From: Halomonas sp. 54_146
Lineage (GTDB): Bacteria; Pseudomonadota; Gammaproteobacteria; Pseudomonadales; Halomonadaceae
Direction: 5' to 3'
Assembly: GCF_001507855.1 (NCBI RefSeq)
Contig: NZ_LGEN01000005.1
Coordinates: forward strand, 1 to 64,000
Length of the DNA stretch: 64,000 bases
A program made the translations under genes and the position numbers. This document shows positions 11,726 through 19,727 of this stretch, piece after piece (position 1 is the first letter of the stretch; each line of letters begins with the position of its first letter). A model generated the notes under the pieces. The model did not search any database. It was not told the DNA's origin and saw nothing but the letters and a program-made list of their open reading frames with translations.

Positions 11726-12778
11726 TTAACGCTTTGGCGGCGACTGTTTTTCTGTCAGTGAATCGGGCAGTTCTGTTAGCTGTTGCTGCAGTGCTTCCAT
11801 ACGATTCCAGAGCTTCTCTTGCCATACGTGCTGTCGCTCTTTTGATTGCTCAGCGTGCGCTAGGGCTTGACGCTCCCGTGCTGCGTTTGCCTCATCTAGC
11901 TGCTGGTTCGCGGTTTCAGCACGTTTGTGTAGGGTCGCGATTTGCTGCTGCTGATCACTTAGCTGCTGTTCGCGCTCACTGGCTTCCAGCTGCAGCTGAT
12001 GCAGCGCCTGCTGGTGACGTTTCAGTTCTTGGTTTAATGCCTCAATACGCTGCTCATCTTGCTGCACACGTTTTTGGTTTGCCTTCTTTTCTTGATCGCG
12101 CGCCTGCTGAGCGGTATCCAGCATCGCCATCAACCTTCCTTCGGCGGCTTCATGGCGCTGCTCTTCTTGTGCTAAGCGCTGCTCCCACGCGGCCTGCTGC
12201 TCGCTGAGCACTTGGCTATGCGCATCCCTCTGTGCGGCGGCCTGGCTTTCTAACTGCTGTTGCGCTCGCTTCAGTTGATTGGTTTCTGCCTGCGACGCTT
12301 CAGCCAACTGCCGCCAGTGAGATTCGCTGGTTTGGCTAGTCGCTAATTCTCGGTTTAACGCTTCCGTGCGCTGTTCCATACGCTGCTCTAAGTGGCGTAA
12401 GTGCTCAGCGAGGGCGCTTTCGCGCTGTTCGGCATTTGCCGCCTGCTGTTTAGCATCCTCGGCGAGCTGCTGGGCGCTGGCCACTTGGCGGTTGGCTTCC
12501 TCGCGGTAGTGGGTGAGCGCTTGGTTGGCCACCTCTTGCGCTTCACGCCATAGCTCGCTAGCCATCGTCACGACCACTTCAGGCACGCCTTTAGGCGGAG
12601 GCACGTCACGATTTTGCTCGCGCTCGCTGCGCCACAGCCGAAAGTGGTCGCTAATGGTGGTGAAGCTGCCTGTGCCCAGAACATCGCGAATACGCTGCAC
12701 GCTGGGCGTATCGCCTCGGGCTAGCAGCGTATCAATGGCTTGCTGAACATCGCTGTACTGAATGCCGTTGCGGGCCAT
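11726..12778 (-). CDS. KfrA-type DNA-binding coiled-coil protein
   Basis: 350-residue protein with an N-terminal KfrA_N-like DNA-binding domain (about 1-110; ARGDTPSVQRIRDVLGTGSFTTISDHFRLWR is its core, quoted in parts: TPSVQRIRDVLGTGS and TTISDHFRLWR) and a long Gln/Glu/Ala-rich coiled coil (about 100-340). Plasmid KfrA is an autorepressor that binds palindromes at its own promoter and builds filamentous scaffolds. The ATG at 12778 follows AAAGGA; the longer frame to 12835 lacks a site. Its promoter region, shared with a divergent recombinase gene, holds two perfect palindromes. A chromosomal KfrA beside an integrase suggests a plasmid- or element-derived module. Confidence 0.85.
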   Translation of the reverse strand: MARNGIQYSDVQQAIDTLLARGDTPSVQRIRDVLGTGSFTTISDHFRLWRSEREQNRDVPPPKGVPEVVVTMASELWREAQEVANQALTHYREEANRQVASAQQLAEDAKQQAANAEQRESALAEHLRHLEQRMEQRTEALNRELATSQTSESHWRQLAEASQAETNQLKRAQQQLESQAAAQRDAHSQVLSEQQAAWEQRLAQEEQRHEAAEGRLMAMLDTAQQARDQEKKANQKRVQQDEQRIEALNQELKRHQQALHQLQLEASEREQQLSDQQQQIATLHKRAETANQQLDEANAARERQALAHAEQSKERQHVWQEKLWNRMEALQQQLTELPDSLTEKQSPPKR

Positions 12779-12837
12779 GGTGGTGTCCTTTCGTTTGAAG
12801 AGCGCCATTGTCAGGATTTTACGAGTAAAAGGCAATA

Positions 12838-12861
12838 ATTACGTATTACATAATACGTAAT
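12838..12861. promoter_or_regulatory. 24-bp palindrome, candidate KfrA-like operator
   Basis: ATTACGTATTA (12838-12848) and TAATACGTAAT (12851-12861) are perfect 11-bp arms around CA. It lies 60-83 bp upstream of the KfrA-like start codon. By analogy with plasmid KfrA, an autoregulatory site is likely (inference). Confidence 0.65.
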
Positions 12862-12880
12862 ATTATTTATCATTTGCGAC

Positions 12881-12916
12881 ATAAATTCAAGATTACTCCC
12901 ATTATCTTGAATTTAT
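12881..12916. promoter_or_regulatory. 13-bp inverted repeat in the kfrA-recombinase intergenic region
   Basis: ATAAATTCAAGAT (12881-12893) and ATCTTGAATTTAT (12904-12916) are perfect arms around 10 bp. It could be a second operator, or a recombination site for the neighbouring tyrosine recombinase: paired 11-13-bp arms around a 6-10-bp spacer are typical of Xer/Flp-type core sites. Confidence 0.6.
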
Positions 12917-12981
12917 ACGACTACAGCGGCACACTTCAGGCCAGAGGCCATAAAAGCTTAAAAAGAAGCACTCAACAAAGA

Positions 12982-13005
12982 CACTTAAAAAAGCACTTAA
13001 AAAAG
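12982..13005. repeat. Exact 12-bp tandem duplication before the recombinase gene
   Basis: CACTTAAAAAAG occurs at 12982-12993 and 12994-13005. Related partial copies lie just upstream (CTTAAAAAGAAGCACT, about 12957-12972). Confidence 0.85.
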
Positions 13006-13030
13006 AAGAAAGAGAGGGGGTTAGGCTAGG

Positions 13031-14251
13031 ATGGCAAACGATGTGATAACACCTACCGGCCAACGACTGGCGCTGAAAAGCTTGCCGAGCGGCGGTCATA
13101 TTAGCGCCCAAAATGATGCTCAGGCGGTCATGGCATGGCTTGATGAGTATGTAGATAGCCCGCAAACCTGGAAGGCGTACCGCCGAGAGTCAGAGCGGCT
13201 GTTGCTGTGGCTTGCTTCCCACCAGCTAACCCTGGCAGATATCAACCGCGAAACACTGCGCCAGTTTGAAGCCTTTCTCGCAGACCCACAGCCCCGCGAG
13301 CAGTGGGTGGGGCCTTCTAAACCCCGTGCTCACCTGGCATGGCGGCCGTTTCGTGGTGCGCTAGCACCGGCCAGCCGGCGCCAAAGTTTGGTAATTCTGC
13401 AGGGCATGTTTGCTTGGCTAGTAGAAGCGGGGTGGGTTAACCACAACCCGTTTCGCTTGATGCGTGATAAATCGCGACGCCTGAATAACCAGACGCCGCG
13501 CATTGAACGCTACCTGGAAAGTGATTTGTGGGCGTGGCTGTGGCAGTGGCTGAATACGCCGTTAGCGGCTGGGGAGGTTCGTCGCGGGGAGAGTAGTCGC
13601 GGGCAGGGAAGCCGGCAGAGAAGACGCGCCCGTTTTGAACATGCACGGCGGCGCTTTATCTTTGGCTTTGCCTATTTGCTCGCCCCACGGCTAAGCGAAA
13701 TGGCGGATGCGCGCATGGGCGATTTTCAGCGCAGTGAAGGGCGCTGGTGGTGGCATGTGGTGGGCAAGGGCAACAAGGTGGCACGGATTCCGCTGCCTGA
13801 CGACATGTTGGCGTGCCTAATTGAGTGGCGGCAGGCGTTAGGCTTGGCTGATTATCCTAGCCAGTTAGATGCTGAAACGCCGGTGCTTCGCGCACTCGAT
13901 GGCCAGCGTGGCTTGGGCCATAACCAGCTTTATCGGCTTATTCGAACGACATTTCAGCAGGCGGCTCAAACACTTGAAGATAACGGCGGCGCAACAGAAC
14001 ACGTTGTTGCGCTCAACCAGGCAACGCCGCACTGGTTACGCCATACCTCGATTACTCACCAGGCTCAGGCGGGTATTGGTTTACGCCATCTAGCAGAGAG
14101 TGCCCGCCATGCGCGCCTTGATACCACCTCGCGCTATTTACATAGCGAAGACATTGAATGGCATAGTGAACAGCAGCGCCATCGTTTAAGCAATTCACGC
14201 CCTGATGGCTCCCTCAAGCCGCCATCAAGCCGTTATAATGGGGCTGATTAA
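13031..14251 (+). CDS. Tyrosine recombinase / site-specific integrase
   Basis: 406-residue tyrosine recombinase. A core-binding domain (about 30-145) precedes the catalytic domain, where all the expected residues are visible: Arg220 in LAPRLSEM, Lys246 in VGKGNKVARIPLP, His334 and Arg337 in TPHWLRHTS, His360 in ARHARLDTT and the nucleophile Tyr369 in SRYLH. An Arg-rich insertion (about 183-208) separates the two domains. It is larger than XerC/XerD (about 300) and not obviously phage-like. GAGAGGGGG lies 10 bases before the ATG. It is divergent from the KfrA-like gene and shares its palindromic promoter region. No att duplications, tRNA target or cargo are visible nearby. Confidence 0.9.
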   Translation: MANDVITPTGQRLALKSLPSGGHISAQNDAQAVMAWLDEYVDSPQTWKAYRRESERLLLWLASHQLTLADINRETLRQFEAFLADPQPREQWVGPSKPRAHLAWRPFRGALAPASRRQSLVILQGMFAWLVEAGWVNHNPFRLMRDKSRRLNNQTPRIERYLESDLWAWLWQWLNTPLAAGEVRRGESSRGQGSRQRRRARFEHARRRFIFGFAYLLAPRLSEMADARMGDFQRSEGRWWWHVVGKGNKVARIPLPDDMLACLIEWRQALGLADYPSQLDAETPVLRALDGQRGLGHNQLYRLIRTTFQQAAQTLEDNGGATEHVVALNQATPHWLRHTSITHQAQAGIGLRHLAESARHARLDTTSRYLHSEDIEWHSEQQRHRLSNSRPDGSLKPPSSRYNGAD

Positions 14252-19481: not shown

Positions 19482-19727
19482 ATCGAAATATATCCTTGGA
19501 AATAAGTGGAGGGAATAATAAGGAGATGGAAGAGTAGTGTCCAACGACATCAGTGCTTTTCGGACATCCCTTTTATCCTATTTAACATAATATATATTAA
19601 GCGAACTACCGGGGAGCACACTAATGCAATAGCCCCTAAGCAGTAGCAACGTTTAAGCAAGTGCTCTATGCTACAAAATATCTTACCAAAACTATACAGC
19701 CACCAATTTTTATATAGGAAAACTTCT

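Follow-up and report, generated by a model that had tools for sequence, protein, structure and literature searches.

What does a chromosomal tyrosine recombinase do when it shares its promoter region, and two inverted repeats within it, with a divergently encoded KfrA-type DNA-binding protein? The question is raised by a locus of Halomonas sp. 54_146 (contig NZ_LGEN01000005.1, positions 1 to 64,000; this whole stretch of 64,000 nucleotides is called the window). A first-pass annotation of the window had proposed a self-contained recombination or DNA-organizing system in which the recombinase acts at the second repeat and the KfrA-type protein represses at the first and scaffolds the DNA. We compared the locus with 151 genomes of the same GTDB family and with loci outside it. 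The locus is probably a chromosomal single-recombinase dimer-resolution module of the XerL/dif type that lies at the replication terminus, coexists with XerC/XerD, and has a KfrA-type partner in the part played by TnpT.

XerL-type systems are already known and have been described as restricted to Legionellales (PMC9765430, Nicholson et al. 2022); a report on Legionella plasmids is also relevant to XerL (PMC11472951). The module would be a variant with a KfrA partner outside Legionellales. In the open-licence PMC literature, the top entries of long match lists held no description of a KfrA/recombinase module in Halomonas-type bacteria. If the reading is right, a large bacterial group has two systems for chromosome dimer resolution, the orphan status of XerL in Legionellales gives way to an evolutionary origin, and KfrA/TnpT proteins share a role as recombination partners. 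It would also predict a reason for possibly mild phenotypes of single xer mutants in Halomonas-type bacteria and would offer Halomonas biotechnology a ready tool for site-specific integration and plasmid stability.

A conserved site between two divergent genes

The KfrA-type gene (positions 11726 to 12778, minus strand) encodes a DNA-binding coiled-coil protein of 350 amino acids with a KfrA_N domain (PF11740, 6.7e-26), the coiled-coil tail being seen just as weak SMC coiled-coil matches. Opposite it, positions 13031 to 14251 (plus strand) encode a probably XerL-related tyrosine recombinase of 406 amino acids (PF00589 Phage_integrase, 1.5e-13). Both open reading frames are complete and open; the KfrA-type start is best placed at ATG 12778 and that of the recombinase at ATG 13031, with an intergenic gap of 252 bp, in agreement with the first-pass annotation. 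Recombinase residues R220, K246, H334, R337, H360, and Y369 are invariant in an alignment of seven sequences from six families; we take these to be the catalytic residues of a tyrosine recombinase.

Within the gap, the second repeat (12881 to 12916) has 13-bp arms around a 10-bp spacer, ATAAATTCAAGAT-TACTCCCATT-ATCTTGAATTTAT, and is the predicted core site, similar to the XerL dif site. Recombinase matches (E ≤ 0.001) were found in 128 of the 151 family genomes and were near full-length in 126, G043 having a weak match and G091 fragments. We read 118 of the 128 loci; outside this count are G042, G043, G065, G067, G078, G081, G086, G089, G091 (examined separately), and G094. A KfrA relative lay divergently 0.2 to 1.5 kb upstream of the recombinase gene in 113 of the 118, and the core was present in the same 113. 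Neither was at its usual place in L037 (a contig end), L099, L125, L135, and L138.

The core consensus across these loci is AAATTCAWGATTA-N6-TTATCWTGAATTT. Its arms are near-invariant, and the 6-bp central (overlap) region between the inner arms (CTCCCA, 12896 to 12901, in the window) varies freely, with 33 different centers in 113 sites and the first center base varying least. Scored with a template derived from the same loci, the best upstream site reached 20 to 27 of 27, versus 13 to 18 for the second best, in every locus with the divergent pair. The core is intergenic, has 8 G+C in 36 bp, and fits a site of ~30 bp with dyad arms of 10 to 12 bp and a short center. Among 107 unique sites, covariation between the arms exceeded 1000 shuffles at pairs 2-31, 4-29, 8-25, and 10-23, an excess that relatedness inflates; the other nine arm pairs stayed within their shuffles. 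Pair 12-21 is mostly mismatched, and the two arms therefore differ there. In Oceanospirillum-type members, both arms are altered together (TTCACGGT...ACCGTGAA).

The core follows the recombinase from genome to genome. A genome-wide scan allowing up to 3 mismatches matched 123 of the 151 family genomes. The hit rate was 120 of 126 among genomes whose recombinase is near full-length and 3 of 25 among the rest. Those three gave one match each, and the two that are listed carry 3 mismatches. Some matches in recombinase-bearing genomes may lie off the locus, since G018 and G028 had none in the stretch read. Six recombinase-bearing genomes gave no match; five of these have the core by a looser local scan, and one has the recombinase gene at a contig end. 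By this comparison, the second repeat is the conserved core and the predicted site of the recombinase.

The first-pass annotation had also suggested inversion of 12881 to 12916 or of flanking DNA, and a recombinase adjoining an inverted repeat might be read as an invertible switch that controls expression from the second repeat. The 11-bp half-site AAATTCAAGAT occurs in exactly two copies in the 3.56-Mb draft genome, both inside the core repeat, and the genomes listed in the core scan mostly have one good site each, few having extra sites. The window's genome thus offers one site, inversion found no support, and we give the switch almost no credence. One single-contig chromosome has, far from the first, another core-like site whose center differs (L260, G079:C1:2507932).

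For a dimer-resolution module, the recombinase would bind the two 12- to 13-bp core arms and recombine two directly repeated cores through the 6-bp center. Since a second core copy would be present only in a replicated or dimeric replicon, the expected product would be chromosome dimer resolution.

A probable box for the KfrA-type protein

The first repeat, a 24-bp palindrome with 11-bp arms (12838 to 12861; ATTACGTATTA-CA-TAATACGTAAT), is probably the KfrA operator and an accessory site. Of 113 loci, 82 have this TTACGTA-type box at a distance of exactly 22 bp from the core, and 7 have it at 21 bp; in 15 of the remaining 24, the distance is off by 7 or 14 bp. Its score exceeds the best shuffled control (15 of 22) in 92 loci and does not in 21. 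The distance from the core to the recombinase start ranges from 79 to 1263 bp in the same 113 loci. The fixed 22-bp distance fits a joint complex. Both repeats are present as the first-pass annotation had described them, and the core stands above chance in all 113 loci with the divergent pair.

Loci in which the parts have separated or been lost show which belong together. In six loci where the two genes are split apart (G016, G037, G051, G218, L226, and L230), the core adjoins the KfrA gene, and the recombinase gene is 3 to 9 kb off. G101 has lost both recombinase and core but keeps the KfrA gene (L088, 11447 to 12532) between nfuA and sufE; TTACGTA-type repeats upstream of it are visible by eye, although the box template does not pick them. 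In G091, the recombinase is fragmented, the core is gone, and KfrA and the box (19 of 22) are retained. Box and core therefore travel with KfrA, and the core vanishes with the recombinase. These patterns support assignment of the first repeat to KfrA. Retention of the KfrA gene in G101 also suggests that it probably serves some separate function; in this genus (g4), 18 genomes were sampled, of which 17 gave no recombinase match and G043 gave a weak one, and within the genus G101 was the locus read. G018 has the recombinase and neither KfrA nor core within 18 kb. Of the self-contained system that the first-pass annotation had envisaged, co-loss and co-movement thus uphold the pairing of recombinase with second repeat and KfrA with first, while inversion is not supported.

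We propose that the box, 22 bp from the core, is bound by the KfrA-type protein, which represses the divergent promoters and is probably accessory to recombination as well, aligning or restraining the complex in the way that TnpT assists TnpS of Tn4651. A simpler alternative is that both repeats are operators only, through which KfrA and recombinase control the divergent promoters, the recombinase being inactive or acting elsewhere. KfrA-type proteins are described as transcriptional autoregulators (PMC7821693), both repeats lie in the divergent promoter region, and G101 keeps KfrA and its repeats without a recombinase. But all six catalytic-type residues are intact, the core, in which 12- to 13-bp arms flank a variable center of exactly 6 bp, is built like the experimentally tested Legionella site, core copies on plasmids have no nearby box, and in the six split loci the core is kilobases away from the recombinase gene. 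We consider an operator-only function unlikely.

Position at the terminus beside dif, and coexistence with XerC/XerD

Three features go beyond the first-pass annotation: the module lies 6.7 kb from dif, its site is XerL-dif-like, and copies of the site occur on plasmids. The first of these concerns a canonical XerCD dif site at 19580 to 19605 (minus strand; TTCGCTTAATATATATTATGTTAAAT, 2 mismatches to the pattern), which is the module's usual neighbor and not part of it. With a canonical dif inside it, the window therefore extends across the region of the replication terminus. Of 32 genomes scanned, 31 gave a single dif match. In 29 near-complete family chromosomes, the recombinase gene was 3.7 to 32.7 kb from dif (median, 6.9 kb), and its distance from dnaA had a median of 0.96 of the half chromosome, with one outlier of 0.41 (G023). 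In 27 drafts with both on the same contig, the distance to dif was 5.2 to 36.7 kb. The site is thus terminus proximal, as in XerL/dif.

The proximity recurs outside the family in Pleionea (1.7 kb), a gammaproteobacterial metagenome-assembled genome (MAG) (L234, 6.7 kb), and G206 (14 kb), stretches that have just the recombinase and KfrA genes in common with the window. In Crenobacter, which shares a gene cluster with G206, a dif-like site lies 26 kb from a related recombinase that has neither KfrA nor core in its vicinity. Among 21 nonfamily genomes, six had a dif-like match, which lay on the recombinase's contig in G206 alone. G206 (L069, L070) has two dif-like sites in inverted order, at C1:158085 (+) and 187405 (-), ~14 kb to either side of the recombinase.

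The window's recombinase is not itself XerC or XerD: it scored 63.5 and 42.6 bits against equivalog cutoffs of 335 and 330, it falls outside XerC and XerD in the tree, and the core arms are unlike the dif site at 19580. The same genome has dif and encodes XerD (354.5 bits, over the cutoff) together with another protein of XerC/D grade (243.6 bits), and the module would work alongside them. It has thus not replaced XerCD/dif there. Of six genomes tested, G176 alone looks like a replacement: it has the module, its best XerC/XerD score is 73 bits and so below that grade, and it lacks a canonical dif match. G322, the sole family mate of G176, has both XerC/XerD proteins (382 and 270 bits) and is outside the 128 recombinase-matched genomes. 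This contrast hints that one system can replace the other.

Relation to XerL

The module shares the logic of terminus-located dimer resolution with XerCD/dif, XerS/difSL, and XerH/difH. It also bears a close likeness to XerL/dif. XerL of Legionella is alone necessary and sufficient to recombine a terminus-located dif with 10-bp perfect arms, and the arms of the Coxiella dif are 12 bp (PMC9765430). In common are a single tyrosine recombinase of ~400 amino acids, a terminus-located intergenic site with long, near-perfect arms and a short center, and copies of the site on plasmids and mobile elements; C. burnetii has a site adjacent to the plasmid gene. The LME-1 att/L. pneumophila dif site is AAGTCTGATTATTTTGATAATC (PMC5071653), and its TGATTA-N6-TAATC equals the inner core, as in TTCATGATTA-CGCCTA-TAATCATGAA of G206. 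The Halomonas module differs in having its site beside the recombinase gene, a KfrA-type partner with its box, and XerC/XerD and dif as well, whereas L. pneumophila has no known XerC/XerD and its dif is >400 kb from xerL (PMC9765430). For XerS and XerH, the same source has the site adjoining the recombinase gene, as here.

In a maximum likelihood tree (rooted for drawing only and built without XerL, XerS, and XerH), the window's recombinase belongs to a clade of 51 rows (96/96) that is separate from XerC, XerD, and TnpS and from the remaining integrases of its genome. An Aquicella (Coxiellaceae) plasmid recombinase, with an adjoining KfrA_N gene, nests in a 32-row subclade (100/96). Neighboring groups in the 51-row clade include L061, which is probably from Legionellaceae: it is 80% identical to a Legionella adelaidensis plasmid protein and has a catalytic-type Y at 385 (published XerL, Y387). 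The NCBIfam scan gave no match to an XerL model.

Outside the family and on plasmids

As the first-pass annotation had expected of a functional pair, the two genes recur together at other loci in other lineages. Outside the Halomonas group, 26 named loci were scored for the core, and 14 have it (at least 17 of 20), these coming from Pleionea, Salinisphaera, Thalassolituus, Oleispira, Competibacteraceae, Contendobacter, Oceanospirillum, and MAGs. It was also found in G206, G343, G245, G218, a Halioglobus plasmid, and a viral contig. The box stood in a 21- to 23-bp register in 14 of the 20 core-bearing outside loci (14 to 21 of 22, several marginal; opposite-strand controls score 10 to 14) and was weak in one. 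With five loci having no box, KfrA is therefore the usual and not an obligatory partner. Distant recombinases (L049 to L068) had no clear core (best, 12 to 17 of 20 in the loci examined) and no matching palindrome and were kept out of the site counts; palindromes at L064 and L086 are unlike the core.

Stand-alone cores lie on plasmids pIGAnt2 (the weakest, 18 of 21), pHAL40, p2-bachu37, pTHAF12_a, pTHAF12_c, Zymobacter pZB5060, and a plasmid of H. qaidamensis. Others are on Rep3 contigs from recombinase-bearing genomes (L258 and L259) and on L256, an apparent 3.75-kb circle assembled twice. Two short core queries against 72,556 plasmid records matched 7 and 12, of which 4 and 4 are from Halomonadaceae (pHAL40 in both); matches outside Halomonadaceae include seven from Vibrio vulnificus at E=8. 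The plasmid center equaled the host chromosome center in 1 of 4 comparable pairs (G036). In that pair, the core at 174 to 199 of the plasmid-like contig L258 (G036:C7) has the center CGCACA, which equals the chromosomal center of the same genome and is present in just 1 of the 113 chromosomal sites, a hint of plasmid-chromosome exchange.

Plasmid sites of the cer/psi type borrow host recombinases, and plasmids carry a copy of the host site. The module would likewise resolve multimers of the core-carrying Halomonadaceae plasmids; unlike at cer/psi, the borrowed system would be of the XerL type and not XerCD. This service might even be the main one selected, the module being a host-encoded plasmid or cointegrate resolvase whose terminus position is inherited synteny. 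Cores on small Halomonadaceae plasmids, the TnpS/TnpT-like anatomy, and related recombinases on plasmids of Halioglobus (with a core), Aquicella, and Burkholderia ubonensis (both with a KfrA_N gene) fit this view. Yet the chromosomal core is kept family-wide beside dif and lies beside dif in three unrelated neighborhoods too, and extra sites occur in just a few of the genomes listed, so we regard plasmid resolution as the main role as rather improbable.

Relation to TnpS/TnpT and plasmid KfrA proteins

The arrangement resembles that of Tn4651 (PMC7157771; pWW0), where a tyrosine recombinase and a KfrA_N helper are divergent and the site between them has two inverted-repeat pairs; the TnpS/TnpT/rst layout was thus found at the Halomonas locus. 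TnpT of pWW0 (L169, 19464 to 20462) has a KfrA_N domain (2.6e-26) and shares 34% identity across 127 amino acids with the KfrA-type protein of the window. TnpT has been described in print as without apparent homologs, and yet it has KfrA_N. TnpS was set aside as a homolog of the recombinase: it has no significant BLASTP similarity and stands elsewhere in the tree on a very long branch. The Halomonas module also differs from Tn4651 in being chromosomal and vertically kept, with no surrounding transposon. With KfrA proteins of IncP-1 and IncU plasmids, the window's protein shares a KfrA_N head, a coiled-coil tail, and presumed autorepression through an upstream palindrome; here the gene is chromosomal and is paired with a recombinase and a core at a fixed spacing.

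dif is a known integration hot spot. The locus could be the remnant of a degenerate dif-using element or of a TnpS/TnpT-like transposon resolution module that has survived by chance or because of a regulatory use, as its place near dif and its match in gene order and KfrA_N partner to tnpT-tnpS would suggest. Against this, the flanks are nfuA, sufE, and yidD, the recombinase is near full-length in 126 of 151 genomes, and TnpS is no detectable relative of it; we hold a remnant to be very improbable. A transposon, of the Tn3 family or other, and an island were rejected on the same flanks and on the locus being kept across the GTDB family.

Weighing the evidence

Several observations weigh against a terminus-located dimer-resolution module with a KfrA-type partner. 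An intact recombinase is missing from 25 of the 151 family genomes, and the core is absent from 12 of the 26 named outside loci; because of this last split (14 with, 12 without), our confidence was lowered slightly, to the "probably" given at the outset. The box is missing from 5 of the 20 core-bearing outside loci, plasmid cores have no box above 16 of 22 within 120 bp, and the box template is not very specific, with dif itself scoring 19 of 22. Proximity to dif inside the family is partly plain synteny of the nfuA-sufE block, and independent cases are few: the three neighborhoods, plus Crenobacter with no KfrA or core nearby. In one scan, a dif match was lacking in 18 of 25 genomes and lay on another contig in 3 more (these being fragmented assemblies), and 10 further recombinase-bearing family genomes gave no dif match. 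The presence of XerC/XerD and dif in the window's genome means that the module may be redundant or otherwise employed, and the G176/G322 contrast comes from one pair of draft genomes. With XerL outside the comparison, kinship to it is by clade and site layout, not by direct alignment; the Aquicella locus has no clear core in the 9 kb examined; and published XerL needs no partner, in contrast to the KfrA-type protein proposed here.

A wider proposal is offered tentatively. Many gammaproteobacteria may have parallel terminus systems, XerCD/dif and an XerL-type system with KfrA, the second of which can take over if XerCD is lost, as G176 suggests. XerL of Legionellales might then be what is left of a once more widespread module in a lineage that lost XerCD and, partly, KfrA, and plasmids would parasitize both systems.

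Flanking genes, other scans, and viral contigs

The first-pass annotation had placed the pair among housekeeping genes, and the scan identified them as nfuA (TIGR03341, 2.4e-92) and sufE (PF02657, 1.1e-47), one on either side of the Vreelandella/Halomonas-type locus, with yidD also among the flanking genes scanned. A PADLOC defense scan gave a weak LmuB match (1.3e-4) to the KfrA-type protein and zero matches to the recombinase, and a defense-system reading was dropped. PHROGs matches were to general integrase families. In phage records, no match was as long as the core: of 21 records, none spans 80% of the query. Recombinase relatives are present on 1678 plasmid records (581 from Klebsiella), of which a few Burkholderia-type, Cupriavidus, and Halioglobus records were examined for sites and partners. 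Three viral contigs (L253, L254, and L255) carry an exact core. L253 has the box and neither gene in the 11 kb examined. L255 (IMGVR_UViG_3300039191_000570) is a phage-plasmid-like element: this circular 11-kb contig encodes a Rep3 initiator, bears P2-type gpA-like and capsid genes, and has a stand-alone core that is a perfect copy.

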